Assembly: GCA_018333815.1 (NCBI GenBank)
Contig: JAGXSN010000064.1
Location: 1-39,617 of the forward strand
Source of the DNA: Sulfuritalea sp.
GTDB lineage: Bacteria; Pseudomonadota; Gammaproteobacteria; Burkholderiales; Rhodocyclaceae
Direction: 5' to 3'
DNA length: 39,617 bases
The translations under genes and the position numbers were made by a program. Under the pieces are notes generated by a model. It was not told the DNA's origin. It did no database searches and saw nothing but the letters and a program-made list of their open reading frames with translations. Shown piece after piece: positions 12,231 through 37,448 of the stretch. Every line of letters begins with the position of its first letter. Position 1 is the stretch's first letter.

Positions 12231-13238
12231 ATGAGCGATCACATCGACGCCAGCGAACAGGGCGGCATGGCTGCCGACGAGCAATGGTTTCGCATGCTGC
12301 TCAATGCGGCCGTCGACCCGGCGCGCATCATGGAAGCACGCCTGCGGCTGGCCAGCAGCATCATGGAGAGCACCAGCGAAGGCATTCTGGTCACCGACGA
12401 ACGCGGCTCCATCATTGCCGTCAATCCGGCTTTCAGCCACATCACCGGCTATAGCCCCGGCGAAGCCATCGGCAATAAGCCGAGCCTGCTCAAGTCCGAC
12501 CATCATCCGCCCTCCTTCTACGAGGAACTCTGGAACGCGCTGCTGACCGAGGGACGCTGGAAAGGCGAGATCTGGAACCGTCACAAGAACGGCACTGCCT
12601 ATCCGGTCCTGCAGACGATCAATCGCATCGCGGCGCACGACGGCATGCCGGCCTGCTATGCCTCGGTGTTCCACGACATCACCGCCTTCCATCGGGCCAA
12701 CGAACGCTTCCAGTATCTCGCTTTCCACGACGCGCTGACCGGCCTGCCAAACCGCGCGCTGTTCCATGAACGGCTGGCGCATGCCATCGAACGTTCGCGC
12801 CGGGACAGCCTGCCGCTCGCCTTGATCTTCATCGACCTCGACGGCTTCAAGGAAATCAACGACCGCTGCGGCCACGACATCGGCGACCTGCTGCTGCGCG
12901 AGATTGCTCAACGCATCCGTCATAGCCTGCGGCGCGCGACCGACACAGTGGCCCGACTCGGCGGCGACGAGTTCCTGATCCTGATGGAAGATCTCGGGGA
13001 AGGCGGACTTCCGCACGAGCTGGCCGCCGAAATCATCGCCGCCATCGCGCTGCCGGTCAAACTGCGCGACCACGTCGTGACCGTCGGCGCATCGATGGGC
13101 GTGGCCTGTTTTCCCGAGGACAGCCGCGATGCCGCGGGGCTGATGAAATGCGCCGACCTCGCGATGTATGCCGCCAAGGCGGCGGGCAAGAACTGCTACT
13201 GCCGCTTCACCGATGACCTGTGGCCAGCGCGCAGCTGA
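12231..13238 (+). CDS. PAS-GGDEF diguanylate cyclase
   Basis: PAS: ESTSEGILVTDERGSIIAVNPAFSHITGYS; GGDEF: HDALTGLPNRALFHERL, RLGGDEFLILMEDL. No EAL domain. GTG at 12222 is an alternative start. Confidence 0.93.
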   Translation: MSDHIDASEQGGMAADEQWFRMLLNAAVDPARIMEARLRLASSIMESTSEGILVTDERGSIIAVNPAFSHITGYSPGEAIGNKPSLLKSDHHPPSFYEELWNALLTEGRWKGEIWNRHKNGTAYPVLQTINRIAAHDGMPACYASVFHDITAFHRANERFQYLAFHDALTGLPNRALFHERLAHAIERSRRDSLPLALIFIDLDGFKEINDRCGHDIGDLLLREIAQRIRHSLRRATDTVARLGGDEFLILMEDLGEGGLPHELAAEIIAAIALPVKLRDHVVTVGASMGVACFPEDSRDAAGLMKCADLAMYAAKAAGKNCYCRFTDDLWPARS

Positions 13239-13260
13239 ACGAAAAATCCCGAGTGCGTTT

Positions 13261-13289
13261 GTAAGAAATCTGGCCCATGCTCCGACCAA
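13261..13289 (+). promoter_or_regulatory. Candidate ECF-type promoter upstream of the RiPP operon
   Basis: GTAAGA - 16 nt - CGACCA, about 50 nt before the 13337 ATG; resembles the general GTAAC / CG-type ECF architecture only loosely. Confidence 0.25.
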
Positions 13290-13336
13290 TGGGCGCAATC
13301 CCTTGCACACCCCTCAACCACCACAGGAGACACACC

Positions 13337-13654
13337 ATGAAAAAGAAAACCACCCTTGCCCTTGCCGCCGGCGCCGCCTTCGTCGCCACCACCGCATTCG
13401 CCCCGCTCGCCAGCGCGGCCGACAATCCCTTCGGGATGGCCAAGCTCGACAGCGGCTACCAGCTGGCCCAGGCCGACAAAAAGGCCGATGGCAAGTGCGG
13501 CGAAGGCAAATGCGGCGGGGCCAAGAAAGTCGACGACAAGAAGAAGGACGGCAAATGCGGCGAAGGCAAGTGCGGCGGCGACAAAAAGGCAGCCGACGAC
13601 AAGAAGAAGGACGGCAAGTGCGGCGAAGGCAAATGCGGCGGGACCAAGAAGTAA
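13337..13654 (+). CDS. HvfA/bufferin-like copper-binding RiPP precursor (signal peptide plus Cys-rich repeat region)
   Basis: MKKKTTLALAAGAAFVATTAFAPLASAA signal peptide, then three DGKCGEGKCGG units; directly upstream of DUF692 and DUF2063 genes. Confidence 0.85.
   Translation: MKKKTTLALAAGAAFVATTAFAPLASAADNPFGMAKLDSGYQLAQADKKADGKCGEGKCGGAKKVDDKKKDGKCGEGKCGGDKKAADDKKKDGKCGEGKCGGTKK
13487..13642 (+). repeat. Three in-frame 33-nt direct repeats encoding DGKCGEGKCGG
   Basis: Units at 13487-13519, 13547-13579 and 13610-13642, spaced by D/K/A-rich linkers. Confidence 0.95.
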
Positions 13655-13660
13655 ATCCCC

Positions 13661-14503
13661 ATGTCTGACACCGCCCTTCACGGTGCCGGCCTCGGCTTCA
13701 GGCGGGAACTGATTCCCGACCTGAAGGCCGGGGTGCCGTCCTCGATCGGGTTCTTCGAGCTGGCCCCGGAAAACTGGGCCGGCATGGGCGGCCGTTCGGC
13801 GAAGGACCTGCGCCATTTCACCGAGCGCCATCCCTTCGTCTGCCATGGCCTGTCGCTCGACCTCGGCGGTCCGCGCCCGCTCGATATCGAGCTGCTCAAA
13901 CGCATCCGGCGCTTCATGCGCGAACACGGCATGCGCCTCTACACCGAACATCTTTCGTGGTGCGGCGACGACGGCCACCTCTACGACCTGCTGCCGATTC
14001 CCTGCAGCGGCGATGCCGTGAAGTGGGTCGCCGGCCGCATCCGCCAGGCGCAGGACCTCCTCGAAATGAAGATCGGCATCGAGAACGCCTCGTACTACGT
14101 CGCCCCGCCGGGCGCGGAGATGAACGAAACCGAGTTCATCCGCGCGGTGATCGGGGAAGCCGATTGCCTGCTGCACCTGGACGTCAACAATGTCTATGTC
14201 AACAGCGGCAATTTCGGCTTCGACCCGCTCGCCTTCATCGACGCGCTGCCGCTCGAACGCAGCTGCTACCTGCACATGGCCGGCCACTACGTCGAGCCGG
14301 ACGGCATCCGCGTCGATACCCACGGCGCCGACGTGATCGACCCGGTCTGGCAGCTGCTCGACGCGGTTTATGCGCGCGTCGGCCCGCTGCCGACCTGTCT
14401 CGAACGCGATTTCAACATCCCGCCGCTGGGCGAACTGGCCAGCGAAGTCGCGCAGATTGCCGCCGCGCAGCGACGCGCCACCCAACTTCGCGAGGCCGCC
14501 TGA
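13661..14503 (+). CDS. DUF692 family (MbnB/TglH/HvfB/BufB-type) multinuclear iron RiPP-modifying enzyme
   Basis: GLGFRRELIPDLKAG, FFELAPENWAG, HGLSLDLGGPRPLD, YTEHLSWCGDDGHLYDLLPIP, ENASYYVAPPGAEMNETEFI, LLHLDVNNVYVN, HMAGHYVEPDG. Confidence 0.93.
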   Translation: MSDTALHGAGLGFRRELIPDLKAGVPSSIGFFELAPENWAGMGGRSAKDLRHFTERHPFVCHGLSLDLGGPRPLDIELLKRIRRFMREHGMRLYTEHLSWCGDDGHLYDLLPIPCSGDAVKWVAGRIRQAQDLLEMKIGIENASYYVAPPGAEMNETEFIRAVIGEADCLLHLDVNNVYVNSGNFGFDPLAFIDALPLERSCYLHMAGHYVEPDGIRVDTHGADVIDPVWQLLDAVYARVGPLPTCLERDFNIPPLGELASEVAQIAAAQRRATQLREAA

Positions 14504-15237
14504 TGCCCCCTGCTCTCCAATTTCAGGAATTCCAGCGCGACTTTGGCCGCCACCTGCGCGACCCGCGCAAAGCCGCGCGTCCGGCCGGCGTGCCCGCGCG
14601 CCGCGCCGCAATCTACGCCGACCTGCTGTTCAACAACCTCACCGGCTTCCTCGACGCCTGCTATCCGGTCACGCGCAGCGTGCTCGGCGCAACGCGCTGG
14701 CGCCGTCTCCAGCGCGCCTTCTTCCGCGCGGCGCGCTGCCATACGCCTTACTTCCGCGAGATTCCGCGCGAGTTCCTCGACTGGCTGCCCGCCGACACGG
14801 GCCCGCGCTGGCTCAGGGAACTGGCGCATTACGAGTGGGTCGAGCTGGCGCTCGACGTGATGGACGCGCCAACGCCCGCCCACGCTCCGGCCGGCGACCT
14901 GCTGGCCGGCATTCCGGTACTCGCGCCGGCGCTGATGAATCTCGCCTACGCCTGGCCGGTGCAGCACATCGGACCGGACTACCGGCCGCGCCAGCCGCGG
15001 CCCGCCCATCTGCTGGTGTATCGGGACGCCGCCGACGAGGTGCAATTCGTCGAGCTGAACCCCGTCAGCGCGCGCCTCGTCGACCTGCTGCTGGAGGGGC
15101 GACAGAGCAGCCGCGCCGCCTGCGCCGCCATCGCCGCCGAACTCGGCCATGCCGATCCGCAGGCGGTGATCGCCCATGGCGCAGCCTTGCTGGCTGAATT
15201 GCGCGCCGCCGGCGCCATTCTCGGAGTCAAACCATGA
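14503..15237 (+). CDS. DUF2063 family (HvfC/BufC-type) RiPP recognition/partner protein
   Basis: LQFQEFQRDFGRHLRDPRKAARPAGVPARRAAIYADLLFNNLTGFLDACYPVTRSVLG; TGATG overlap with the DUF692 gene. Confidence 0.9.
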   Translation: MPPALQFQEFQRDFGRHLRDPRKAARPAGVPARRAAIYADLLFNNLTGFLDACYPVTRSVLGATRWRRLQRAFFRAARCHTPYFREIPREFLDWLPADTGPRWLRELAHYEWVELALDVMDAPTPAHAPAGDLLAGIPVLAPALMNLAYAWPVQHIGPDYRPRQPRPAHLLVYRDAADEVQFVELNPVSARLVDLLLEGRQSSRAACAAIAAELGHADPQAVIAHGAALLAELRAAGAILGVKP

Positions 15238-15320
15238 AAAAGCTCATCGGCAAACTGATCCTCGCGGGACCGGGACGCCTCTCCATCGACGCGCTGATCC
15301 GGCGTAGCATGCGCGGATGA
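15234..15320 (+). CDS. 28-aa micro-ORF, candidate internally deleted DoxX remnant
   Basis: MKKLIGKLILAGPGRLSIDALIRRSMRG*; ATGA overlap with the upstream stop and with the downstream sigma-factor start; tail resembles the GPG(R/K)LS-D-L terminus recalled for DoxX proteins of DUF692/DUF2063 operons. Confidence 0.5.
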   Translation: MKKLIGKLILAGPGRLSIDALIRRSMRG

Positions 15321-15901
15321 ACTCCGCCGGTGAACTCGCCCCTCAGTTGGCCAAGTTCCGTCCCGACCTGCTGCGCTTCGCCCGCCTGCAGCTGCGCGAC
15401 GACCCGCTCGCGGAGGATGTCGTGCAGGAGGCGATGATCGCCGCGCTCGCCGGCAGGCGGGATTTCGCCGGGCGTTCCGCGCTGAAGACCTGGGTGTTCT
15501 CGATCCTCAAGAACAAGATCATCGATGCCATCCGCAGCCGCGAGCGCACCGTCAATCTCTCGGCGCTGTCCGGGGAGGAAGAGGCGTTCGAGGAGGCCTT
15601 CGACCGTCTGTTCAAGGCCAACGGCCACTGGCAGCGGGACCATCGTCCCGGCGATTGGGGCGATCCCGAGGAAACGCTGCGGCAGGCGCAGTTCTGGCAG
15701 GTTTTCGACGCCTGCCTCAACCACCTCCCGGAAAACACGGCGCGCGTGTTCATGATGCGCGAGCTGCTCGAATTCGAGGTCGACGAGATTTGCACCGAGC
15801 TGCAGATCAGCTCCAGCAACTGCTACGTCATCCTGCACCGGGCGCGCAACAACCTGCGCGGCTGCCTCGAACGCAGCTGGTTCGGCCCCGGAGAGTCATG
15901 A
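15317..15901 (+). CDS. ECF-type RNA polymerase sigma factor
   Basis: RFARLQLRDDPLAEDVVQEAMIAALAG (region 2), LKTWVFSILKNKIIDAIR, LPENTARVFMMRELLEFEVDEICTELQISSSNCYVILHRARNNLRGCL (region 4). Confidence 0.92.
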   Translation: MNSAGELAPQLAKFRPDLLRFARLQLRDDPLAEDVVQEAMIAALAGRRDFAGRSALKTWVFSILKNKIIDAIRSRERTVNLSALSGEEEAFEEAFDRLFKANGHWQRDHRPGDWGDPEETLRQAQFWQVFDACLNHLPENTARVFMMRELLEFEVDEICTELQISSSNCYVILHRARNNLRGCLERSWFGPGES

Positions 15902-16101
15902 TGTTGAGCTGCAAGGAAGCCACCCACGTGATGTCCGCCGCGCATGAACGCGAACTGGGCCTGCGCGAACGCATCGCGCTGCGCCTGCACCTGCTGATGT
16001 GCCGGGGTTGCCGGAACTACGAACGGCAGATGGACTTCCTGCGTCGCGCCTGCGGCCGCGTCGGGACTTCGACCGCGGATGACAAGGCGAGCGGGGATTG
16101 A
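15898..16101 (+). CDS. zf-HC2 anti-sigma-like small protein
   Basis: SCKEATHVMSAAHERELGLRERIALRLHLLMCRGCRNY; ATG overlaps the sigma-factor stop; no obvious TM segment. Confidence 0.85.
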   Translation: MMLSCKEATHVMSAAHERELGLRERIALRLHLLMCRGCRNYERQMDFLRRACGRVGTSTADDKASGD

Positions 16102-16175: not shown

Positions 16176-17264
16176 ATGTTGCAGCATGTCCTGATGTTCC
16201 TGCTCGGTCTGGCCGCCCTGGTGGCGGGCGCCGAACTCCTGGTGCGCGGCGCCGGCCGCCTGGCCCTGAGCCTGGGCATTACGCCCCTGGTGGTCGGCCT
16301 GACGGTCGTCGCCTTCGGCACCAGCGCCCCGGAGATGGCCGTCTCGATCGACGCGGTGATGGTCGGAAACGACGACATCGCCGTCGGCAACGTCGTCGGC
16401 AGCAATATCGCCAACATCCTGGTGATCCTGGGGATTTCCGCCCTCATCACCCCGCTCCTGGTCCACGAGCAGATCATCCGCCAGGAAATTCCGATCATGA
16501 TCGGCGTCAGCCTCCTGCTCATCGTGATGGCCATGGACGGCAACTTGGGCATGATCGAGGGCATCGTCCTCTTCGCGCTGCTCGTGGTCTATACCGCGTT
16601 CCTCGTCATCCAGTCGCGCCGGGCGAACCGGGCGACGCAGGAAGAGTTCTCCCACGAGTTCCCGACCGCCCAGGCGAGCCGATGGGATGCCCACTGGAGC
16701 GTTCAGGGGCTGCTCATCGTGGCCGGCCTGGGGCTGTTGGTGCTGGGAGCCGACTGGCTGGTCGACGCCTCCGTGGCGACTGCGCGCATCTTCGGAATCA
16801 GCGACCTGGTGATCGGACTCACCATCGTGGCCGTGGGCACCTCGATGCCGGAAATCGCCACCTCGCTCGTCGCCGCCATCCGGGGCGAGCGCGACATCGC
16901 CGTCGGCAACGTCGTCGGCAGCAACATCTTCAACATCCTGGGCTGCCTGGGGCTCTCGGCCGCCATTTCGGGCGACGGCATCGTCGTTTCCGAGGCGGCG
17001 CGCAACTTCGACGTATGGGTGATGCTGGCCGTGGCCCTCGTCTGTCTGCCGATCGCCCTTACCGGACGGGAAATCGCCCGCTGGGAAGGCGCCTTGTTCA
17101 TCGGCTACTACGCGGCCTACGTCACCTATCTCATCCTCGCCGCCCAGCAGCACGCCCAGCTGCAGGCCTTCTCGGCCGTGATGCTCACCTTCGTTCTGCC
17201 CCTGACGGTGATCGGTCTGATCGTTTGCTTCGTGCGCGCCAATCATCTTTCCCGACCTTCCTGA
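16176..17264 (+). CDS. Calcium/sodium (K+-independent) antiporter, CaCA family, YrbG-like
   Basis: Duplicated alpha-repeats GTSAPEMAVSIDAVMVGNDDIAVGNVVGSNIANI / GTSMPEIATSLVAAIRGERDIAVGNVVGSNIFNI; multiple TM segments. Confidence 0.93.
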   Translation: MLQHVLMFLLGLAALVAGAELLVRGAGRLALSLGITPLVVGLTVVAFGTSAPEMAVSIDAVMVGNDDIAVGNVVGSNIANILVILGISALITPLLVHEQIIRQEIPIMIGVSLLLIVMAMDGNLGMIEGIVLFALLVVYTAFLVIQSRRANRATQEEFSHEFPTAQASRWDAHWSVQGLLIVAGLGLLVLGADWLVDASVATARIFGISDLVIGLTIVAVGTSMPEIATSLVAAIRGERDIAVGNVVGSNIFNILGCLGLSAAISGDGIVVSEAARNFDVWVMLAVALVCLPIALTGREIARWEGALFIGYYAAYVTYLILAAQQHAQLQAFSAVMLTFVLPLTVIGLIVCFVRANHLSRPS

Positions 17265-17312: not shown

Positions 17313-17639
17313 TTACTTCAGCGTGAGGACGAACTGCACCAGCGTCTTGATGTCGGCGTCCTTCACCGTCGCATTGGGGGGCATGGGTATCGGCCCCCAG
17401 ACGCCCTTGCCGCCCTTCTTCACTTTGGTGAGCAGCATGGCCTCGGCATCGGCCTGACCGCCATACTTCTTGCCGACTTCCTTCCATGCCGGGCCGACGA
17501 GCTTCTTGTCGAGCTGATGGCAGGCGAGGCAGCCGTTCTTCTGGGCGATGACCATCGCCTCGGCCTCGGTAACCGCGGCCGAGGCGCCGCCCGCCAGCAG
17601 GCAGCCGGCGGCGGCAAGCGTGATTACGATTGTTTTCAT
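17313..17639 (-). CDS. Periplasmic class I cytochrome c (c551/c552-like)
   Basis: Signal peptide MKTIVITLAAAGCLLAGGASA; CLACH heme motif; axial-Met region GPIPMPPN. Confidence 0.92.
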   Translation of the reverse strand: MKTIVITLAAAGCLLAGGASAAVTEAEAMVIAQKNGCLACHQLDKKLVGPAWKEVGKKYGGQADAEAMLLTKVKKGGKGVWGPIPMPPNATVKDADIKTLVQFVLTLK

Positions 17640-17656
17640 GCGGTTTCCTTTCCCGT

Positions 17657-20332
17657 TCAAACGATGTGACGCGGCTTCAGGCTCATGCGGCTCAGGTCGG
17701 TCTTGTATTCCGACTCGCCCACCTTGGTCAGCGTGCCGCGGCCGAGCTTATAGCGGTAGTTGTTGGTGACCGGGTCGGGCACGGCCGACACCACCGCGTT
17801 CGCCATCGACTTCGGCGTGTTGAAGTTCGACTGGGTGATCCCCTCCTTCATCTCGTCCGAGACGATGGCCACCGCCCTGAACTTGCCCGCCGTCGTCTTG
17901 ATGTGGCCTTCCTTCAGCAGATTGTTGAAGTTGAGGTCGGCGTCGAGCACGCCCTGCGGCTGGCCAGTCTGGACATAGACGGTGTCATTGACGATTTCTA
18001 CCCAGTCGCCCGATTCGATTCCCCGCTTTTTGGCGTCGTTCGGGTGGATCAGGATGAAGTTGTCGGGCCAGCGCTGGTGCAGGTAGGGCTTGCGACGGTC
18101 ATCGAAGGCCGACTGCCAGGTCTCGTTCACCCGGCCGTTGGTCACCCACAGCTCGTCTTTCTCGGTGCGCGGCTTGACGGCGTCGAAGAACTGGATCCAG
18201 CCGGGGAACTTCCACGGGGTCTTGAGCAGGATCGCCTTGCCGGTGAACGTGTTGAAACTGTGGAGAAAATGGCCGTGCACCTCGCTGCCTTCCATTTCTC
18301 CCCAGTCGTTGGCGGGGTCGTGCAGGCGCTGGGTGCCGACGAGCTTGCCCTCCTTCACCCGGATCGGGGTCTGGATGCCGGTGGTGCCCAGGGAGCGCAG
18401 CAACTCGTGCCCCTTCAGGCCCCGGCTCTTCGCCATCTGGACGAGCGGTTCGTAATTGAGCACGCCGCCGCGACCGAAGCGGGCCGCTTCCTCGAAGACG
18501 TCGTTGGAGGTCTTCCACGAGTAACTGCCGTCGACGGTGAAACCCATCTTGTCGGCGAACTTCATCACCGCCCACCAGTCCGGCCTGGCCTCGCCCGGTG
18601 GGTCGTAGAACCGGGAATAGAGGCGCAGGCGGCGCTCGGAGTTGCAGCGGGTGAGGTCGTCCTCGCCCCAGGTGGCGGCCGGCAGCACAAAGTCGGCGAA
18701 CTCGGTGCCGACCGGCTCGCAGGGATAGATGTCGGAATCGACCATCACCATGCCGCCCGAATCGACGCGCCGCTTCAGGGTCTGGAAAATCGCCGCGCGG
18801 TCGAGACTGGTGATCTGGTGCGGGCTGCCGTTGGTCAGCTCCCTCATTCTCGCGCCGAGGGCGTCGGAGGCCATCATCGCCGCCACCCAGGTGGTGCCGA
18901 ACACCCAGGCGAACTTGATCTCGCCCACCATCAGCCAGCGATCCAGGTTGAAATCCTTCTTGCGCCGTCCCGGATATTTCTCGGGGGAAAGCCAGCCGGA
19001 GCCGCCGCCGGCGCCCATCCAGCCGCGCTGGTGGCCGCCGCCGCGCGAGATCATGCGGCCGGGGCGGTTGCCCGAGCCGCAGATCAGGCCCAGCGCCGCG
19101 AAGGAAGCGGTGTTCATGTAATTGTTCGACCAGTAGTTGCCCTTCTCGCACATGAAGGAGGCCTTCGGCCGCTGGCCATTTACGGGCTTGGCGAGCCATT
19201 CGGCGGCGAGGCGGATCTTCTCGGCCGGGATGCCGGTGATCTGGGCCGCGACCTCGAGCTTGGACTCCTCCTGCGCGACGATGAATTTCCGATAGTCCTC
19301 CCAGTCGCTTTGCCAGGCGCCCCAAGTGGTGCGCCACTGCCAGCCGGTGTTGCGGGTGCCGCGGCCGTAACCGGAATCCACCTCCCAGGGTTTGGCGATC
19401 CAGCGGTCGATGAACTCCTGATCCTGCCAGCCGTTTTCGATGATGATGCGCGCCAGGGCCAGGTGCAGCACCGTGTCGGTGCCGACATTGATCGGCAGCC
19501 ACATCCCGCGATTGTTCGCTTCGGCCCACGCCACGCCCACGGTCTTGTGGGGTGTGACGAAAATCAGCTTGGCGTCGCCGGGCATCATCCACTGGGTGAA
19601 CAGCGTGGTCTTGGTTTCATACGGATCGACGCCGGAGAGGAAACCCACGTCGGCCAGGCGCCAATCCTCGTAGCAGGACGAAAACGAGTCGATGCCGGCA
19701 TCGTCCATGCCGGTCGCGTCGTTGGTGGCGGCGCACTTGTCGTGCGGCGCGACGGACGGCGTGCCGATGCTGGTCATCGCCAGCTTGGTGATGGCGTAGG
19801 TGTTCTCGAAATACTGGTAGGAATACATTTTTACCGCCCAGCTGTGCTCGCCGTGCTGGGTCAGCACGTATTTCGAGATGTCGGCCATCGCCTCGGTTGC
19901 CAGATCCCACGAGACGCGCGTGAGTTTTCCATTGACGCGGATCATGGGGTGGAGCAGCCGCTCGCGCGTCGGGGTGTCCGGGTTGTAGCACTTCTGGCCC
20001 AGCGTGCCGCCGCGGATCGAATGGTCGCCGCCGACGTTGACCACCTTCGTGTCCTTGTCGGGCACGATCACGACGTGGTGCGGTTTGCCCCGATGGGTGA
20101 CGATGTTGTGCTGGGTCGGACTGATCCAGGCGGTCATCATGTTCGGGTGGGGAAAATCGGTCTTCAGGGCGTTCTGGCTCGCAGCCATGCCCCCTTCCCG
20201 GCCGACCGGCCAGCGATAAACCTTGTAGCCGCAGGCGATGGTGCAGTAGTCGCAGGCGGTGGTCAGCACCTCGGCATCACGGGGCGGCAGGGGGATGCGG
20301 TCCGCGGGAATGAAACGTTCGCTCTTGCTCAT
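17657..20332 (-). CDS. idrA: AioA/IdrA-family molybdopterin oxidoreductase, large catalytic subunit (putative iodate reductase IdrA)
   Basis: N-terminal CDYCTIACGYKVYRWP (C-x2-C-x3-C, 3Fe-4S type), VVNVGGDHSIRGGTLGQKCYNPDTPTRERL, SRGGGHQRGW, ELWVTNGRVNETWQSAFDD; adjacent Rieske and two di-heme peroxidases. Confidence 0.75.
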   Translation of the reverse strand: MSKSERFIPADRIPLPPRDAEVLTTACDYCTIACGYKVYRWPVGREGGMAASQNALKTDFPHPNMMTAWISPTQHNIVTHRGKPHHVVIVPDKDTKVVNVGGDHSIRGGTLGQKCYNPDTPTRERLLHPMIRVNGKLTRVSWDLATEAMADISKYVLTQHGEHSWAVKMYSYQYFENTYAITKLAMTSIGTPSVAPHDKCAATNDATGMDDAGIDSFSSCYEDWRLADVGFLSGVDPYETKTTLFTQWMMPGDAKLIFVTPHKTVGVAWAEANNRGMWLPINVGTDTVLHLALARIIIENGWQDQEFIDRWIAKPWEVDSGYGRGTRNTGWQWRTTWGAWQSDWEDYRKFIVAQEESKLEVAAQITGIPAEKIRLAAEWLAKPVNGQRPKASFMCEKGNYWSNNYMNTASFAALGLICGSGNRPGRMISRGGGHQRGWMGAGGGSGWLSPEKYPGRRKKDFNLDRWLMVGEIKFAWVFGTTWVAAMMASDALGARMRELTNGSPHQITSLDRAAIFQTLKRRVDSGGMVMVDSDIYPCEPVGTEFADFVLPAATWGEDDLTRCNSERRLRLYSRFYDPPGEARPDWWAVMKFADKMGFTVDGSYSWKTSNDVFEEAARFGRGGVLNYEPLVQMAKSRGLKGHELLRSLGTTGIQTPIRVKEGKLVGTQRLHDPANDWGEMEGSEVHGHFLHSFNTFTGKAILLKTPWKFPGWIQFFDAVKPRTEKDELWVTNGRVNETWQSAFDDRRKPYLHQRWPDNFILIHPNDAKKRGIESGDWVEIVNDTVYVQTGQPQGVLDADLNFNNLLKEGHIKTTAGKFRAVAIVSDEMKEGITQSNFNTPKSMANAVVSAVPDPVTNNYRYKLGRGTLTKVGESEYKTDLSRMSLKPRHIV

Positions 20333-20343
20333 GTCTTCTCTCC

Positions 20344-20919
20344 TCAAGCCCGTTTGGCGGTCATGGCGGCATAGCCATACACGAGGCCTTGCACGCCGAC
20401 GGCGTAGATGTCGTCGCCCTGCACCTCCAGCACGATCTGCGGCAGGCTTGCGGTGGCCTGGCCCGAAATCACCATGCCGTAACGTGTCAGGTCGAAGGTG
20501 GTCAGATGCAGCGGACAGGGGCCGAGCGCCTGATGGGCGTCCTTGTAGGTGCCGTCCAGCGGCCCGCCCATGTGCGGACACTGCTGGTTGAACGCCACGA
20601 TGTCGCGCTCGGGGCCGCTGCCGCCACCGGCCCGGACGCCGAGTTTGACGAGGACGTTACGCACGTTCGGGTAGGGATAGTTGAAATTGACCGGCGCCCC
20701 CTTTTTCAGGGCGGACAGGCTGCCGATCTTCACTTTCGGGTAGCTGGCCCGCAGGGCATGCAGGGGCGCGGCCATGAGCTCGCCAGGCAAGCCGACGGCG
20801 GCCAGCGTCACCATCGCTCCGCCGGCCAGCAGGAACTGCCGGCGGCTCATGCACTGACGATCTCTCTCATGCTCGGGGTCGGGGCGTTCGGCGTGCGCCT
20901 GAATGGTTTTTTCAGTCAT
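20344..20919 (-). CDS. idrB: AioB/IdrB-type Rieske [2Fe-2S] small subunit with TAT signal
   Basis: SRRQFLLAGGAMVTLAAVGL twin-arginine signal; Rieske motifs CPHMGG and CPLHLTTFDL, lacking the extra disulfide cysteines. Confidence 0.78.
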   Translation of the reverse strand: MTEKTIQAHAERPDPEHERDRQCMSRRQFLLAGGAMVTLAAVGLPGELMAAPLHALRASYPKVKIGSLSALKKGAPVNFNYPYPNVRNVLVKLGVRAGGGSGPERDIVAFNQQCPHMGGPLDGTYKDAHQALGPCPLHLTTFDLTRYGMVISGQATASLPQIVLEVQGDDIYAVGVQGLVYGYAAMTAKRA

Positions 20920-20931
20920 CTTGAGTCTCCT

Positions 20932-22071
20932 TTATTTCAGGGTCATTGCCGGCGCAGCGGGAGGTGGAAGGGGCTGGTAATCGCCGGGCAGCTTCGGGTC
21001 GTCGTGGATCAGCGGCTCGTCCATCGACAGGGCCTCGAGGAAGGCGATCAGCTCCTTCTTCTCCTGCACGGAGAGCTTCAGGGGCTTGACCAGCGGGCTC
21101 TTGTTCTGCACCGTGCCACCGCCCTTGTCGTAGAAATCGACCACCTCGGCGAGTGTGGCGAAGATGCCGTTGTGCATGTAGGGTGCGGTGTATTTGAGTT
21201 CGCGCAGGGACGGCACGCGGAACTTGCCGATGTCACCAGGATTCTTGGTGACGAAAAACAGCCCGGCATCCCCGGTGGCGTTGCGATAGACCGCCTCCGG
21301 CACGCCTTTCTGGTAGTGCTGCCAGCGGTGCGTGACCTGGGTGAGCGGATCGTCCCGGAAACCCGGATGGGGCGGCACCCCGGTGGCGTGGAACTGCTGG
21401 TTGGAAGCGAGCGGACCGTTGTGGCACTGGATGCAGCCGGCCTTACCGTGAAAGAGCGCCATGCCCCGCTTCTGACTGGCATTGAGGGCCTGCTTGTCGC
21501 CCTTGACGAAACGGTCGAAAGGCACCTTTCCGGCATCCGAGACGACCGTTCGCTGGTAGGCGGCGACCGCACGCCAGGCGTCATTGATGCGCGGCCATTC
21601 AGTGCCGAACACCTGCCGGAATTCCGCGACGTATTCCGGCAGGAAACGCAGGCGCATCTCCATCACCGAATCGTCGCCGTTGCCGGCGACCGAGCCGCCG
21701 GCGGCGGCAGGGGCCTGAGCCTCGAGGCTGGTCACCGAACCCTCCCAGAATAGCTTGTTGTAGTAGGCCGAGTTCAGGATCGTCTGGGAGTTGCGCCAGT
21801 GCTTGGTGCCGGGATAGCCGCGCGAGAGTTGCCCGCCGTCGCCCCAGCCCAGTGCGGGCAGGTGGCAGGAAACGCAGGGCATCGAGTTGTCGCCGGAAAG
21901 CCGGTTCTCCCAGAAAATCTTTTTCCCGAGGGCGATCTTCTCCGGCGTGTTCGGGTTGTCCTGCGGGATCGGCGGCGGCGGCAGCGGGCCGAGCCTCGGA
22001 TACTTGTCGGCGGCGGCGGCCGAACAGGCCAGCAGGAGCGCGCCGGTCAAAAGGGTGCAGCGAAGTTTCAT
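20932..22071 (-). CDS. Di-heme cytochrome c peroxidase / MauG-family protein (IdrP-like)
   Basis: Signal peptide; CVSCH and CIQCH; KYTAPYMHNGIFATLAEVVDFYDKGGG. Confidence 0.9.
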   Translation of the reverse strand: MKLRCTLLTGALLLACSAAAADKYPRLGPLPPPPIPQDNPNTPEKIALGKKIFWENRLSGDNSMPCVSCHLPALGWGDGGQLSRGYPGTKHWRNSQTILNSAYYNKLFWEGSVTSLEAQAPAAAGGSVAGNGDDSVMEMRLRFLPEYVAEFRQVFGTEWPRINDAWRAVAAYQRTVVSDAGKVPFDRFVKGDKQALNASQKRGMALFHGKAGCIQCHNGPLASNQQFHATGVPPHPGFRDDPLTQVTHRWQHYQKGVPEAVYRNATGDAGLFFVTKNPGDIGKFRVPSLRELKYTAPYMHNGIFATLAEVVDFYDKGGGTVQNKSPLVKPLKLSVQEKKELIAFLEALSMDEPLIHDDPKLPGDYQPLPPPAAPAMTLK

Positions 22072-22081
22072 GTTCGGCTCC

Positions 22082-23170
22082 TCAGTTCTTGCCGTAGGCG
22101 GTCCAGACCTGCAGGTCGGGCTGGCCGGGATCCTTGACGATGACGGGGTCGCCCGAGAGCGACAGCAGGAAGGACTTGATCGCCTGTTTCTCGGCGGACG
22201 ACAGACTCAGCGGCTTCAGCGCCGAACCGCCCCCGCCGCCCCTGTCGTAGAAGTCGATGACTTCATCGAGGGTCGAGAACACGCCGTTGTGCATGTAGGG
22301 CGCGGTGTATTTCAGGTCGCGCAGCTGGGCGGTCCTGAACTTGCCCAGGTCGCGCTTGTTCTTGCTGATGGCATAGTGACCGACATCGGTGCGGGCGTTC
22401 ATGTAATTGGGCATGCCGGAAGTCGAGTAATGCCGCAGCATGGTGATGGTGCGCAGCGGATTCTTCAGCACCTCCGGGTGTTCGGGCACGCCGGTGCGAT
22501 GCAGATTGCCGTCCGATCCGATCGGGCCGTGATGACAAGCCACGCAGCCGGCCTTGCCCCGAAACAGCGCATAGCCGTTCTTCTGCTCGGCGGTGAGCGC
22601 GTTTTCATCGCCCTTTTTGAACCGGTCGAAAGGCGCGTTGACGGTTTCGAGCGTGCGGATGAACTCGCCGATGGCGCTATAGACACGCATGCCGTTGATG
22701 TCGTCCTTGCGCCATTTCGCCCACATTTCCCGGTATTCCGGCACCTGCTTGAGGCGCTCCTGCATCAGGCGCGAATCCATGTTCATGGTGTGCGACTCGG
22801 TGATCATGTCGCGCGCCAGGGTGCCGGCGTCGGCGCCGTCCAGTCGCCCGTCCCAGAGGAAACGCCGTTGGTGTCTGGCATTGAGCACCGTGGGCGCGTT
22901 GCGGAAATACTCCATCGACGGATAACCGGTCGACAGCGCCTGGCCGTCGCCCCAGCCCTTCTCGGGATTGTGGCAAGTCGCGCAGGACACGCCCCAGTCG
23001 CCGGAAAGTCGATTGTCGAAGTAGAAATACCTGCCCAACTCGATCATCGCGGCATTGCCCGGCTTGCTTTCCGGCATCGGCGCGAGATCGGGGCCGCTGC
23101 CTTGCGCCTGGGCCCCGCCCACGACGGCGACGAGACCCGCGGCCACGAGCGTCCTGCAAAATGCGTGCAT
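22082..23170 (-). CDS. Di-heme cytochrome c peroxidase / MauG-family protein (IdrP-like), paralogue of the adjacent gene
   Basis: Signal peptide; CATCH and CVACH; KYTAPYMHNGVFSTLDEVIDFYDRGGG. Confidence 0.9.
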   Translation of the reverse strand: MHAFCRTLVAAGLVAVVGGAQAQGSGPDLAPMPESKPGNAAMIELGRYFYFDNRLSGDWGVSCATCHNPEKGWGDGQALSTGYPSMEYFRNAPTVLNARHQRRFLWDGRLDGADAGTLARDMITESHTMNMDSRLMQERLKQVPEYREMWAKWRKDDINGMRVYSAIGEFIRTLETVNAPFDRFKKGDENALTAEQKNGYALFRGKAGCVACHHGPIGSDGNLHRTGVPEHPEVLKNPLRTITMLRHYSTSGMPNYMNARTDVGHYAISKNKRDLGKFRTAQLRDLKYTAPYMHNGVFSTLDEVIDFYDRGGGGGSALKPLSLSSAEKQAIKSFLLSLSGDPVIVKDPGQPDLQVWTAYGKN

Positions 23171-23222: not shown

Positions 23223-23237
23223 GCACAGGCCGTGCCA
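23223..23237 (-). promoter_or_regulatory. Candidate sigma54 (-24/-12) promoter of the peroxidase-Rieske-Mo enzyme operon
   Basis: Minus strand TGGCACGGCCTGTGC with GG-N10-GC spacing; about 50 nt upstream of the 23170 ATG; gene upstream encodes an NtrC-type activator. Confidence 0.65.
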
Positions 23238-23244
23238 GCCCGGA

Positions 23245-23267
23245 AAAGTCGGCGCTGGCGGGACGGC
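23245..23267 (+). repeat. Dispersed 23-bp repeat, exact copy
   Basis: Intergenic, between the candidate sigma54 promoter and the palindromic sites. Confidence 0.9.
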
Positions 23268-23270
23268 AGC

Positions 23271-23319
23271 GGTCACAAACTGACCGAAAATCCCAATCCT
23301 GACCGGTCAGGAAGTGACC
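23271..23319. promoter_or_regulatory. Candidate upstream activator sites (TGACC/GGTCA half-site cluster)
   Basis: Perfect 14-bp palindrome CCTGACCGGTCAGG (23298-23311), inverted repeat GGTCA-CAAAC-TGACC (23271-23285) and a further TGACC (23315-23319). Confidence 0.55.
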
Positions 23320-23322
23320 GGG

Positions 23323-24690
23323 TTACTCGACATCGGCCTCACCGGCCTCGCGCAGCTTGTTGCGCAGGGTCAGCCGGGTGATGCCGAGGATTTCGGCAGC
23401 ACGTGTCTTGTTTCCCGCACACTGGGCCATGATGCGCCGGATGTGGGCGAGTTCGACGGCGGCAAGCGTGGCCGGCGGAACATCGGCTGAGAACAAAAAA
23501 ATCGGCGCTGGCGGGACGGCGCCCGATATTTCCGCCGGGAGCTGACCGGCCGACAACGCGCCGTTTTCGCACAGGATCACCGCCCGCTCGATCACGTTAC
23601 GCAGCTCGCGCACGTTGCCGGGCCACGCATACGCCGCCAGCAGGCCCTGGACATCGGCGGGCAGTTCGGGGGGCGCGATGCCCATCGCGCGCGCGCTGGC
23701 GAGTACGAATTCACGGGCCAGCGGGGGAATGTCGTCGCGTCGGGCGCGCAGGGGAGGCACCTCGATGGCGCCGACGTTGAGGCGGTAATACAGGTCCTCG
23801 CGGAACGTCCCGACCTTGACCATTTCCGGCAGGTTGCGGTGGGTGGCCGCGACGAAGCGCACGTCGACCTGGATCTCGCGGCTGCCGCCGACGCGCCGGA
23901 AACTTTGGGTTTCCAGCACGCGCAGCAACTTGGGCTGCAAGGCGAGCGACAAATCGCCGATCTCGTCGAGGAAGAGCGTCCCGCCGTCGGAAAGTTCGAG
24001 CAGGCCGCGCTTTTGCTGCTTCGCGTCGGTGAAGGCCCCCTTCTCGTGGCCGAACAATTCGGACTCCATCAGACCCTCGGGCAGGGCCGAGCAGTTGAGC
24101 GTCACCCACGGCCCGGCGGCACGCGAAGACTGGCAGTGGATGGCCCGCGCGACACGCTCCTTGCCCGAGCCCGACTCGCCATGGATCAGCACCGGCACGC
24201 GCGACGCTGCGGCGATCTTCTGGGTCACGCGCATCAATTCGCGGCAGGCCGGACTTTCGCCCGACAGCCCCTCATGAGTGCAGGCGCCGGATTGGGCGCG
24301 CCGCCAGGCGACCTCGCGGCGCAGCGAACGCGTTTCGAAGGCGCGGGCGACGAGTTCGCGCAGATCTTCGAGATCGAAGGGTTTGTTGATGTAGTCGTAG
24401 GCGCCGGCCTTGAGGGCGGCCACCGCCGTGCGGACTTCGGGAAAGGCCGTCATCATCACCAGCAGGGCCTCGTCGTCGATCTCGCGCAGGCTGCCGATCA
24501 GCCCCAGGCCGTCGCCATCGGGCAGGCGCAGATCGAGCAGGACCAGCCCGTAGCGCCGCTGGCGGGCGAGCGCCAGCGCAGCGGCGACCGTTTCGGCGGC
24601 ATCGACGGCAAACCCCAGACGGCCGAGAAAGCTGGCCAGGGCAATACGCAAGGTCGCGTCGTCTTCGACGATGAGGATGGCTTCGTTCAT
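23323..24690 (-). CDS. Sigma54-dependent response regulator (NtrC family: REC-AAA+-Fis HTH)
   Basis: [65 protein letters not shown]-terminal [20 protein letters not shown]. Confidence 0.96.
23498..23520 (+). repeat. Dispersed 23-bp repeat, 22/23
   Basis: AAAATCGGCGCTGGCGGGACGGC, in the AAA+/HTH linker of the response regulator. Confidence 0.85.
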
Positions 24691-26675
24691 GGGCCGGTGG
24701 CGGCAGGAGCAGGCCAGCGCAATGCGAAGCAGGAACCTTGCCCGACGACGCTCTCAACCGTCAGCGTCGCGCCGTGCGCCTGGGCGATCTTGCGCACGAT
24801 GGCCAAGCCCAGCCCGGTGCCGTCGGCGCGCGTGGTAAAAAATGGATCGAAGATGCGCGCCTGGACTTCCGGGGCCATGCCCACGCCCGTGTCGCGCACC
24901 GCGATCGTCACCGCATCGTCCGGCCCGGTTTTGGCCGTGATCGTCAGGCGACCGCCGGCGGGCATCGCATGCACCGCATTTACGGCCAGGTTGAGCAGCA
25001 CCTGCTTGATCTGGGCCAGGTCTGCCCGCACCACCAGCGTCGGCGGAATGTCGGTGGCGATCTCGACGCCGTGGGTGCGGGCTTCCTTGCGGAGCCAGAA
25101 CAGGACATCGGCGACGACTTCCGCCAGCGCCACGTCAACGGGTTTTGCCGTCTGCGGGGCCGCGAAGCCGTGAAAACTTCGGAGAAAATCGGCCAGCCGG
25201 TCGGTTTCGGCTTCGAGACGCTCGAGCGCCTCGGCCACGCCCCGGGGCAAGTCCTCCTCATATTGCAGCGCCTGGGTCACCGCCTTCATGCCGGCCAGCG
25301 GATTGCCGATCTCGTGGGCGATGCCCATGGTCAATTCGCCCAGCGTCGCGAGTTTTTCCATCTGGAACATCTGGCGGTCGAGCTCGCGGCGTTCATCCTG
25401 CTCGCGCTCGAGCTCTGCGGTACGGGCGCGCACCTCGTCCTCGAGCCGGTCGCGGTGCGCGGCCAGCGACTCGACCAGCAGCCGGATTCTTTCGGCCATC
25501 GCGTTGAACTTCTCGCCCAGGGCCGCGATCTCGTCATGCCCGCGAACCTCCACGCGATGCGAGAAGTCGCCCGCCGCGATGGCCTCGGATTCCCGACTCA
25601 GCGCATCCAGCGGTCCCAGCAGCCGACGCGTGATGGCATAGCCGCCCAGCGCCGTCGCCAGCAGGCAGATAGCCAGAATCGCATAGAGGGCGTGCAGGTT
25701 GAAGACCGACATGAACAGCTTTTCCTCGGGGACGCCGATGGCGATCACCCATTGCAGGCGCTCCTCGGCCGGATAGGCCGCGCCGAAACGGATCGTTGCA
25801 TGGGCGATGATGGATTCGGCCGCCGCCAGCGCGCCATCCTTCTCAGCCAGCAACTGACCGACCGCCGCCTCGCCGAATTGCCCGACCAGGCTGCTCACCG
25901 GCGCCATGGCAAAACCGCCCGCATCGTCGGCGGTGCGGGTCAGATAGTGGCCCGAGCGGTCGAAGAGATAGGCCGTGCCGCCCCGCATCTGGGCCATCTG
26001 GCGGATCTGGTCGAGCAGGAAGTCGGCATGGAGATTGATGATGAGGATGCCCTCATTGACGGCGCTCGGCCCGGCGCCGACCGGCGTCGCGACGCGGATC
26101 ACGGGGCGCTCGGGCAGTTCGATCCGGCCATGCTCGACATTGAGATCGAGCGGCGACACATAAAACTCGCCCGGCCTGCGTGCCATCGCCTCGCCGAAAT
26201 AGTAGCGTTCGCCCTTGTTCTGCAACTGGTCGCGGGGCACGATAAAGACGCGCCCATCCTTCTTGTCAACCCGCACGATCTCGTGCCCGTCGGCGGCGAG
26301 ATAGCGAATCTGGTAGATATGCGGATACGTCGCCGCAAGCGTCAGGTAATCGCGCTCCAGTCGGGTTGTGGCCGCATCGATGGCCTGGGGGTCCGTTTTC
26401 TGCCGGGCCTCGCGCAATTCCTCCAGCGACAGGGCGTCGGCCAGATACAGGAGTTCGGCGGCCAACTGGTCGAAGAAGCGCCCGACGCCCTGCGCGCGTA
26501 CCGCGACTTCGTGCTGCAGATGATCGAGCGTCTCGGAACGCAAGGTATGCAGCGACACGTAAATGCCGATGGCGCCGGCGATGGCCGTGGGAATCACGGC
26601 CACCAGCAGGAAGGCGAGGTAGATGCGCCGCGCCAGTCCGCGCGCGGGGGGGTTCGGGAGCATGGCAAAGATCAT
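24687..26675 (-). CDS. Membrane sensor histidine kinase (Cache-like periplasmic domain, HAMP, HisKA, HATPase)
   Basis: N-terminal TM, about 300-aa periplasmic sensor, second TM and [25 protein letters not shown]-box, [16 protein letters not shown]; stop overlaps regulator start. ATG at 26663 is an alternative start. Confidence 0.93.
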
Positions 26676-26732: not shown

Positions 26733-27869
26733 TCAAGCGTCGGGCAGTTCCAGCGGCACGCCGCCCGGACAGACCCCGCGCGGAGACTCGCGCGTGGTGT
26801 CGATGCACCCGCCCTTGGCATAGACGCCTTTAGGATCGCGCAGGCGCATCATGCGTTCGAGGATGGCGCGGGTCTGCGCCGGATTGGCCTGCGTTGCCCG
26901 CACGCAGGCCGCCACCCGTTCCTCGTCCATCCACAGGTCGGCGCCGTTATCGCTGCATACGCCATCGCGCCAGTGATAGAGTTCGAGACACTTGCCGGAG
27001 AGGGTGTAGGGGCGCTCGCGCTGCCAGAAATTCGAAAACAGGCCGCCGCCCAAGGAGATGACCCAGGAACCCTCGTAACCCAGCACGTCGGATGACGCCC
27101 GATCGGGATTGCGGAACCACACCCGGTCCCCCGGCACGTAAAAGCGCGGTGGCAGGGGCGCCTCCATCGAACCGTATTCGTGCAGGAAAATGTCGTGGAA
27201 GCGCCCGGACTGGATCGCTCGTGTTTCCCATTGCTTCTGCAGCCGTGCCAGCAGGGCCGGATTGCACGCCTGCAACTCTTCGGCCAGTCCGAGCAGGATC
27301 ACGTATTCGGTCGCCCGGTAGCAGGAAAACGCGTACATCTGGCCGGATACGTCGGGCTGGGTAGCCTTGCGCAGGGCGTCGATCAGCGCATGGCCGGGCC
27401 GCACGACAAAGCCGGTGTCCTCGTGATAGAGCCAGCAATCGGCCGGCCGCTCGGCGGCATCGCTGGTATCGAAGGCCAGCGCCGTGACGCGCGCGGCCTT
27501 GACGATGTTGCGCCGCACCCGGATCGCCGAGACCAGACCGTCGCAGCCGGCGAACTCCAGGACCACCGGGCTGCGCAGCAGGGCGAGCAGGATGAGGCGA
27601 TCAAGATCCTCGTCGCTATGCTCCGGGTCGAGCCCCATGCGGGCGCACAGCGCGGTCGTGTCGGCATCGGGCGTCCAGGCGGGCGAACGGGCGTCGAGGA
27701 TGATCGAGGCCCCGCCGGACGTGATACGGATGTCATCGCGGGAAGCCTCGTTCTCGAGATTCATTCGAGCCAGGCATTCGAGCAGGGCCTCCCCCTCGCG
27801 CACGGCCGCTTCCCGGCCCGCGCCCTTCAGGAACACCCCTCCCCGGCGCCCATCGTCATTTCCTGGCAT
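26733..27869 (-). CDS. Tgl-like protein-glutamine gamma-glutamyltransferase (transglutaminase)
   Basis: IRVRRNIVKAARV, DTGFVVRPGHALIDALRKATQPDVSGQMYAFSCYRATEYVILLGLAEEL, FLHEYGSMEA, FYVPGDRVWFRNPDRASSDVLGYEGSWVISLGGGLF; resembles Bacillus Tgl by hand alignment from memory. Confidence 0.65.
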   Translation of the reverse strand: MPGNDDGRRGGVFLKGAGREAAVREGEALLECLARMNLENEASRDDIRITSGGASIILDARSPAWTPDADTTALCARMGLDPEHSDEDLDRLILLALLRSPVVLEFAGCDGLVSAIRVRRNIVKAARVTALAFDTSDAAERPADCWLYHEDTGFVVRPGHALIDALRKATQPDVSGQMYAFSCYRATEYVILLGLAEELQACNPALLARLQKQWETRAIQSGRFHDIFLHEYGSMEAPLPPRFYVPGDRVWFRNPDRASSDVLGYEGSWVISLGGGLFSNFWQRERPYTLSGKCLELYHWRDGVCSDNGADLWMDEERVAACVRATQANPAQTRAILERMMRLRDPKGVYAKGGCIDTTRESPRGVCPGGVPLELPDA

Positions 27870-27946
27870 GAAAGACGGCCCTCCCCTCTGGCGGTTGTCG
27901 TTCAAGCGGATCAAAAATCCTTCCCGACCTTTCCAGTATCCCACAG

Positions 27947-27969
27947 AAAGTCGGCGCCGGCGGGACGGC
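27947..27969 (+). repeat. Dispersed 23-bp repeat, 22/23
   Basis: AAAGTCGGCGCCGGCGGGACGGC, intergenic between the Tgl-like gene and moaA. Confidence 0.85.
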
Positions 27970-28000
27970 GCTCCGGCGGGCAGGTTCATATAATCGGCCC

Positions 28001-29017
28001 ATGAAACCGCTCTCTCCCCTGCTCGATACCTTCGGCCGCCCGCTGCGCGACCTGCGCATCTCGGTGACCGACCGCTGCAATTTCCGCTGCGTCTATTGCA
28101 TGCCCAAAACGGTGTTCGGCCGCGACTACCCCTTCCTGGCGCGCGCCGATCTGCTGTCCTTCGAAGAGATCGACCGCATCGCCCGGCGCTTCGCCGCACG
28201 CGGCGTGCAGAAGATCCGGCTTACCGGCGGCGAGCCGCTGCTGCGTCATGGCATCGAGACCCTGATCGGGAAACTCACGGCCATCGACGGGGTCGAGGTC
28301 ACGCTCACCACCAATGGTTCCCTGCTGGAGAAGAAGGCCGCCCTCCTCGCCCGTGCCGGATTGCGGCGCGTCACGGTGAGCCTCGACGCGCTCGACGAGG
28401 CCGTATTCAAGCGCATGAACGATGCCGACTATCCGGCGGCGAAGGTGCTCGCGGGCATCGAGGCGGCGGCAGGCTCCGGACTCGCGCCGGTGAAGGTGAA
28501 TTGCGTCGTCAAGCGCGGCGCGAACGACGACCAGATCCTGAAACTTGCGCGGCACTTCCGTCATTCCGGCCACATCCTGCGCTTCATCGAATACATGGAC
28601 GTGGGCAGCAGCAACGGCTGGGCGCTCGACGAGGTCGTGCCCTCGGCCGAGGTGCTGCGCCTCGTGGGTGAAACCTTCCCGCTCGAACCCATCGACGCGA
28701 ACTATCCCGGCGAGGTGGCGCAGCGCTGGCGTTACCGCGACGGCGCGGGCGAGATCGGCGTGATCTCCTCGGTGACGCGCGCCTTCTGCGACGGCTGCAC
28801 GCGCATTCGCCTGTCCACCGAAGGCAGGCTTTACACCTGCCTGTTCGCCGGCGAAGGCCACGACCTGCGCGCCCTGCTGCGCGGCGGCGCCGACGACGCG
28901 GCGCTCGATGCGGCCATCGCCGCCATCTGGCAAGCCCGCGCCGACCGCTATTCCCAGCTTCGCATGGCGGCCACGGCCGGGCTCAGGAAGATCGAGATGT
29001 CCTACATCGGTGGGTAA
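28001..29017 (+). CDS. moaA: GTP 3',8-cyclase MoaA (molybdenum cofactor biosynthesis)
   Basis: [20 protein letters not shown] radical SAM motif, [13 protein letters not shown]-terminal cluster [20 protein letters not shown], terminal GG. Confidence 0.97.
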
Positions 29018-31800: not shown

Positions 31801-32532
31801 TTATTTCAGCCTGGCAAAGGCCGCCGCGTGCGCATGCAGGGAAATCGCAAAATTGCGGATGCTCAATTCCGCGTTCGGTTGGCTATAACCGCCGCGCACG
31901 CCCTCCTTCGCCGACGAGGTGAAAAAGCAAGCAGCATCGTAGAGGCGTTCCCGAACTAGCCGCTCGCAAACCGTCTCGTAGCGTCCGGCATAGCTGAGTT
32001 GCTGAAATGTCTCATCGACCTTGAATGGATGCAGCTCGATCTTTTTCGTCGGCCGCAAAGAGGATGGCTGCTCCTCCAGCATGAACAGGTAACCCAGCCA
32101 TGGCTTCCCGCTCGGCGCTAGGATGCCCTTTCGGTAGGCAGACCAAAAGTCCGTCGCATTGCCACGCGCTTCCTCGACGCGATTGTTGAAATTGTTACCG
32201 AAGCTGCCAACCTGCGATTTGACTTCGACCGCAGCAATCAGATCGCTCCCGCACACGACAACCACATCCCATTCCTTCGTCGGGCGAAAGTAACCGGGCA
32301 AGGTGCGCGGAAGTTTTTGGGCAACATGGATATTTGCAGTTGCCAGACTTGCATCCTTGACTATCGCGGCAATCAGCTGCACAAATCCATCGGCATGCTT
32401 GCCGCCCGTGACGGCACTGCGATTGCCGGCATCCTTCTTCCCGCTTGAACTCCCCTGTCTGACTTTTTGGGCTTCGCGGGTCTTCCAGAAATGCTGGACA
32501 GATTTGGCAAGCTGCTTTTCGATATCGATCAT
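31801..32532 (-). CDS. Type II restriction endonuclease, PaeR7I/XhoI-like
   Basis: GKKDAGNRSAVTGGKHADGFVQLI, LPGYFRPTKEWDVVVV, AAVEVKSQVGSFGNNFNNRVEEARGNATDFWSAY, PWLGYLFMLEE; coupled to an upstream methyltransferase. Confidence 0.82.
   Translation of the reverse strand: MIDIEKQLAKSVQHFWKTREAQKVRQGSSSGKKDAGNRSAVTGGKHADGFVQLIAAIVKDASLATANIHVAQKLPRTLPGYFRPTKEWDVVVVCGSDLIAAVEVKSQVGSFGNNFNNRVEEARGNATDFWSAYRKGILAPSGKPWLGYLFMLEEQPSSLRPTKKIELHPFKVDETFQQLSYAGRYETVCERLVRERLYDAACFFTSSAKEGVRGGYSQPNAELSIRNFAISLHAHAAAFARLK

Positions 32533-33524: not shown

Positions 33525-37448
<3,924 letters not shown>

Follow-up and report, generated by a model that had tools for sequence, protein, structure and literature searches.

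A probable dissimilatory iodate reductase island with a linked two-component sigma-54 system in a Sulfuritalea draft genome

Does an operon whose molybdenum enzyme is assigned by curated family models to arsenite oxidase (Aio) in reality encode a dissimilatory iodate reductase (Idr)? The question is raised by a cluster of Sulfuritalea sp. (Rhodocyclaceae), at positions 17313-23170 of contig JAGXSN010000064.1 (assembly GCA_018333815.1). The window, that is the whole stretch of 39,617 nucleotides analysed here, corresponds to contig C64 of a 2.34 Mb draft genome that comprises 269 contigs and is 84% complete. An initial annotation had described five co-directional minus-strand genes encoding two di-heme peroxidases, a Rieske protein, a molybdenum enzyme and a cytochrome c. 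Indeed, all five open reading frames (ORFs) are present with the claimed heme, Rieske, molybdenum-enzyme and cytochrome features. The gene set reaches further upstream, to a response regulator and a histidine kinase that the annotation had omitted. In our view, the cluster very probably constitutes a dissimilatory iodate reductase island, made up of idrP2-P1-B-A and the gene of a c551-like cytochrome and controlled by the linked two-component sigma-54 system. In order of transcription, the operon genes are as follows, MGD standing for molybdopterin guanine dinucleotide and Tat for twin-arginine translocation.

22082-23170, minus strand: idrP2 (Pa), first operon gene, di-heme protein of MauG/CcpA type, 362 aa; CATCH and CVACH; Pfam CCP_MauG.
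20932-22071, minus strand: idrP1 (Pb), adjoining idrB, di-heme protein of MauG/CcpA type, 379 aa; CVSCH and CIQCH; Pfam CCP_MauG.
20344-20919, minus strand: idrB, Tat-exported Rieske subunit; above the arsenite_ox_S cut-off (TIGR02694); twin-arginine motif SRRQFL; CxH-X18-CxxH.
17657-20332, minus strand: idrA, catalytic bis-MGD/[3Fe-4S] subunit, 891 aa; above the arsenite_ox_L cut-off (TIGR02693), E 8e-135.
17313-17639, minus strand: c551-like monoheme class I cytochrome c, 109 aa; ATG at 17639; CLACH; Pfam Cytochrom_C.

The five genes follow one another head to tail at short intervals, 10-12 bp among the first four and about 17 bp before the cytochrome gene. IdrA contains a Rieske_3 [3Fe-4S] domain and a molybdopterin domain, carries the [3Fe-4S] motif CX2CX3CX70S and starts with MSKSERF, without a signal peptide. 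IdrP1 and IdrP2 each have two CX2CH motifs, and their N-termini are hydrophobic by eye, consistent with a Sec-type signal. The label P1 is given to the idrB-proximal gene from the accession order in Azoarcus sp. DN11, and the name idrABP1P2 runs opposite to the direction of transcription. Dozens of independent genomes contain this gene set in the same order, so that the operon cannot be put down to chance.

This gene order had been taken as a mixture of Aio-like and Idr-like arrangements and as a possible sign of an uncharacterised oxidoreductase. That view has to be abandoned. Relatives were collected by scanning one genome per species with an alignment of related sequences, which gave 80 loci. 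The order P-P-B-A occurs in every Idr locus with full context, the locus of Denitromonas iodatirespirans IR-12 agrees with the window all the way from the kinase to the cytochrome gene, and the two peroxidase genes are reported always to precede idrAB (PMC8801600). Thus, the supposedly mixed order is the canonical one and is ruled out as a novelty; the window cluster is a canonical Idr island, ordinary in kind. At Aio-like loci of the same family, which have the order B-A, peroxidase genes were not found. An apparent exception to the synteny rule is L124, where genes for an IdrA-like (54%) and an IdrB-like protein lie without a nearby peroxidase pair. Another idr locus, L077, belongs to a record titled Euryarchaeota archaeon and may reflect a binning error.

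The identity of the enzyme is supported by its phylogeny. The window IdrA is 73% identical to that of IR-12 (L056), in which deletion of idrA abolishes iodate respiration (PMC8692401). Identities reach 77% with Aromatoleum toluvorans Td21 (L073) and 63% with both Roseovarius azorensis (L072) and Notoacmeibacter marinus (L065); R. azorensis shows iodate-reductase activity in a band that contains IdrA, and iodate is also reduced by cells of N. marinus (PMC11445184). In both trees, the window IdrA belongs within the betaproteobacterial Idr clade, where L040/L041 and L039 are its sisters, and is bracketed by the enzymes of IR-12 and of the two alphaproteobacteria. AioA of NT-26, the same-family AioA-like proteins and an intermediate pair fall outside the Idr clade. 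When the window IdrA is constrained to group with AioA, the likelihood falls by 259 log units (approximately unbiased (AU) test, p-AU 3e-39). The phylogeny proposed in the initial annotation as a check on the 17657-20332 product therefore places it in the Idr clade and not inside the AioA clade.

The active site leads to the same answer. Eight second-sphere residue positions have been described in AioA (PMC10448176; also PMC3758308), and we compared them in 44 Idr, 5 Aio and 2 intermediate sequences. His199, Lys413, Arg447 and His451 (Aio numbering) are kept in all aligned sequences. The four other positions separate Idr from Aio, and the window IdrA has the Idr state at all of them. Asp169 is replaced by Ser (S171 in the window) and Glu453 by Arg (R436) in 44/44 Idr sequences; Glu207 is replaced by Asp in 38 of the 44 and by Ser in 6 (D205 in the window), and Arg201 by Lys in 37/44 (K199). 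All 5 Aio sequences and both intermediates have Asp, Glu, Glu and Arg at the positions 169, 453, 207 and 201. Having fewer acidic groups at the substrate funnel would fit a switch of substrate, from arsenite, which is neutral, to iodate, an anion. In addition, the Rieske motif has X18 spacing in the window IdrB and in that of Azoarcus DN11, vs. X15 in Aio. The initial assignment to Idr rather than Aio is thus strongly supported by the tree position, the residues of the active site, the spacing of the Rieske motif and the presence of two peroxidase genes. In a gammaproteobacterial/KSB1 branch of Idr-like enzymes (L119-L123 and relatives), Ser rather than Asp occupies the Glu207 position, and the substrate may differ.

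Known systems share these features to various extents. The IR-12 island has the same seven-gene order HK-RR-P-P-B-A-cytc (HK, histidine kinase; RR, response regulator) and the same active-site residue set, with moderate sequence divergence. Azoarcus sp. DN11 has an atoS/atoC pair upstream and the motifs CX2CX3CX70S and CXHX18CX2H (PMC10149662). Its cluster and that of Aromatoleum toluclasticum TC-10 also have island character; in contrast to the window, they have no c551-like cytochrome gene beside them (PMC10149662, PMC8801600). R. azorensis and N. marinus keep the order P-P-B-A and the active-site set at about 63% IdrA identity, whereas their regulators are different and their Rieske spacing is X19. 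Finally, AioAB of NT-26 and Alcaligenes faecalis shares with the window enzyme its superfamily, its cofactors, the B-A order and the four invariant residues. However, it differs at the four discriminating positions and in the Rieske spacing, and its locus is devoid of peroxidase genes.

How would such an operon be switched on? A two-component system, a c551-like cytochrome and moaA are known accessories of idr islands (PMC8801600). In the window, the following elements precede idrP2.

24687-26675, minus strand: sensor histidine kinase with a Cache-like sensor and a HAMP domain; homologue at the same place in IR-12.
23323-24690, minus strand: NtrC/AtoC-type sigma-54 response regulator; Response_reg, Sigma54_activat and HTH_8.
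23304-23320, minus strand: putative enhancer palindrome CGGTCA-N5-TGACCG, copy 1, exact, just past the regulator stop codon.
23270-23286, minus strand: putative enhancer palindrome CGGTCA-N5-TGACCG, copy 2, exact.
23223-23237, minus strand: putative -24/-12 sigma-54 promoter TGGCACGGCCTGTGC, 1 mismatch to the consensus, starting 67 bp before idrP2.

The kinase and regulator genes overlap by 4 bp, and the regulator homologue at the same place in IR-12 is 61% identical. We compared the regions up to 300 bp upstream of idrP2 in 15 loci with a linked regulator and 50 loci without one. The palindrome (at most 1 mismatch) occurs in 12/15 of the former vs. 0/50 of the latter, with a Fisher p of 1e-10 that is overstated, as the counts treat related loci as independent. 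The promoter (at most 1 mismatch) is found in 13/15 vs. 2/50. Related as the loci are, spacer and arm sequences of the palindromes vary between them; in IR-12 the palindromes are degenerate, and R. azorensis and N. marinus have neither palindromes nor sigma-54 promoter. In L053, the kinase/regulator pair is located downstream of idrA and the palindromes elsewhere in the locus. Sulfuritalea bin.273 has two different idr loci (L039 and L064), with the kinase/regulator pair and palindromes at L039 only. The draft genome contains rpoN. Induction by iodate is known in relatives (PMC10149662, PMC11445184) and a role of the two-component system in the iodate response has been suggested in general terms (PMC8801600). 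We propose that the linked regulator may bind the palindromes and drive the operon in response to iodate. The two other exact palindromes of the genome, at C54:3273 and C146:2428, have no good sigma-54 promoter nearby; hence the idea of a wider palindrome regulon was dropped and none beyond idr is claimed. Tandem palindromes followed by a -24/-12 promoter before the operon are absent from the Idr literature that we examined.

A second question concerns the two di-heme proteins. Their AlphaFold models have only moderate confidence (predicted local distance difference test, pLDDT, of 72 and 74) and resemble the CcpA/MauG fold family as a whole, the best structural matches being ordinary cytochrome c peroxidases. 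However, when aligned with solved di-heme peroxidases, both window IdrPs have a Tyr at the position of the axial Met of CcpA, and thus lack the Met ligand on the electron-transfer heme that characterizes a classical cytochrome c peroxidase. A Tyr is found at this axial position in 20/21 sequences of each IdrP kind, as in MbnH. The position of the distal Glu, the acid-base residue required for peroxide turnover, holds Ala or Thr as aligned, in a loop that is poorly aligned and of low model confidence. Because of the replaced axial Met and the distal Glu that is not clearly conserved, a plain peroxidase role of the IdrPs appears doubtful. MbnH and MauG resemble them in having two CxxCH motifs and a Tyr axial to a six-coordinate heme, although identity is only about 25-30%. 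Bis-Fe(IV) chemistry is associated with a Tyr-His ligated heme in both MauG and BthA (PMC6405878). A literature search for idrP1 together with MauG found no paper, and the replacement of the axial Met by Tyr in both IdrPs is absent from the Idr literature examined. We consider the odds even for a twofold proposal: that betaproteobacterial idr islands carry a self-contained switch for iodate, which moves together with the enzyme genes and consists of a Cache-type kinase, an NtrC-type regulator, the tandem CGGTCA-N5-TGACCG enhancers and a sigma-54 promoter, and that the IdrPs are Tyr-ligated enzymes of MauG/MbnH type, not ordinary cytochrome c peroxidases, possibly handling hypoiodous acid (HOI) or forming high-valent heme states rather than just clearing H2O2.

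What we observed is which genes are present and in what order, their homology, the position of IdrA in the trees, the residue signatures and the association of the motifs; the substrate, the inducer, the electron route and the role of the IdrPs are our inference. The sensor kinase would respond to iodate or low oxygen and phosphorylate the NtrC-type regulator, which would then bind the two upstream palindromes and activate the sigma-54 promoter. IdrAB would be exported by Tat as a folded pair, using the signal of IdrB. Electrons of quinol may pass through bc1 and c551, reach the Rieske centre of IdrB and continue via the [3Fe-4S] cluster of IdrA to the Mo centre. The c551-like cytochrome is the presumed donor to IdrAB; a homologue occupies the corresponding position in IR-12, where it is 57% identical, and in about 10 other loci. 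At the Mo centre, iodate would be reduced to HOI, which would disproportionate to iodide and iodate, and the two periplasmic di-heme proteins would dispose of the by-product oxidant (H2O2 or HOI). The chlorite dismutase step proposed for strain SCT was set aside, as the 84% complete draft gave no match for this enzyme. This agrees with the IR-12 model.

Several points weigh against the iodate reductase island as we read it. The organism is known from an incomplete draft genome, and iodate reduction by its cluster is a prediction; knockout proof comes from one relative only; the motif p-values are overstated; and a plain peroxidase role of the di-heme proteins is doubtful. Among other explanations, an Idr-lineage enzyme shifted to another oxyanion (e.g., bromate, chlorate, selenate or periodate), or using iodate only as an electron sink or for detoxification, survives best, though we judge it unlikely. 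The terminal branch of the window IdrA is about 3 times as long as those of its nearest sisters (0.14-0.15 vs. 0.04-0.05) and the Roseovarius relatives that reduce iodate do not grow anaerobically with it (PMC11445184). However, the active-site set has no window-specific change, G274N is the sole departure at columns at least 93% conserved in Idr, and the layout of the locus matches that of proven iodate respirers; a functional shift was therefore not retained from branch length. A mis-binned contig or assembly chimera, with an operon foreign to the genome, is less likely still. The draft is fragmented and idrA is found in only 2 of the 19 genus genomes compared. Nevertheless, the contig matches the genus mate G571 (93% DNA identity over 13.2-16.0 kb, 80-90% over 28-30 kb), and a 21-mer dispersed in the lineage, GTCCCGCCAGCGCCGACTTTT, has copies both in the idr promoter region and within the regulator gene. 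A chimeric join within the contig itself keeps a small probability. Least credible is an AioAB-family arsenite (or antimonite) oxidase adjoined by peroxidases by chance: both subunits do exceed curated arsenite oxidase cut-offs, and AioA provides the closest solved structures by sequence, but these models and structures do not separate Idr, and the AU test, the four replaced residues, the Rieske spacing and the peroxidase-free Aio-like loci all argue against it.

Where does the iodate reductase island begin and end? The features that delimit it are listed below.

17248-17261, plus strand: left direct repeat TTTCCCGACCTTCC, in the last caxA codons.
26733-27989, minus strand: transglutaminase-like ORF (PF20085), inside the insert; start codon uncertain; weak NCBIfam match far below cut-off.
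27920-27933, plus strand: right direct repeat CTTCCCGACCTTTC, about 70 bp before moaA.
28001-29017, plus strand: moaA (GTP 3',8-cyclase), resident gene adjoining the insert; TIGR02666 above cut-off.

In the genus mates G126 and G579, caxA and moaA are about 26 bp apart and are followed by mobA. In the window, about 10.7 kb separate caxA from moaA and carry, on the opposite strand, the cytochrome gene, idr, the regulator, the kinase and the transglutaminase-like ORF, which was not seen near idr in the other loci compared. Since caxA, moaA and mobA are adjacent in genus mates, moaA is resident in the window genome and was rejected as an imported part of the island; the IR-12 island reportedly lacks molybdopterin genes (PMC8801600). 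The C-terminus of CaxA departs from those of genus mates at the left repeat. The pattern YTTCCCGACCTTYC covers both imperfect repeats and occurs nowhere else in the 2.34 Mb. An insert bounded by such a genome-unique imperfect direct repeat is absent from the Idr literature examined. The caxA-moaA interval is variable in the genus: G571, despite its similarity to the window, carries different genes ahead of moaA, and in G568 the two genes are separated by about 11 kb of other DNA.

The 21-mer is a dispersed repeat, in coding and intergenic DNA, with about 205 copies (at most 2 mismatches) in the draft vs. 0 in a reversed control, and its density differs among genus mates. Window copies include 1639-1659, 23244-23264, 23497-23517, 27946-27966 and 37079-37099, and the one in the idr promoter region has a counterpart at the equivalent position in L041. 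Elsewhere in the window, an XhoI-like restriction endonuclease and an N6/N4 DNA methyltransferase are encoded at 31801-33515 between relA and purL, where G+C dips to 0.59; relA and purL are closer together in the genus mate G080. An MNIO maturase (HvfB/BufB type) operon with an extracytoplasmic function (ECF) sigma factor and a zinc-finger anti-sigma factor lies at 13159-16101, preceded by a small ORF that shows internal repeats in comparison with G571.

These results add a well-supported idr island, with identifiable borders, for a Rhodocyclaceae-like lineage. The four-position residue signature offers a simple test for separating Idr and Aio, two enzymes that are still lumped together by curated family models. 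The motif-supported switch, the ligand change in the IdrPs and the clear borders are predictions; the promoter/enhancer motif and the Tyr-ligated IdrPs make iodate sensing and the role of the peroxidase-like proteins open to direct experiment.

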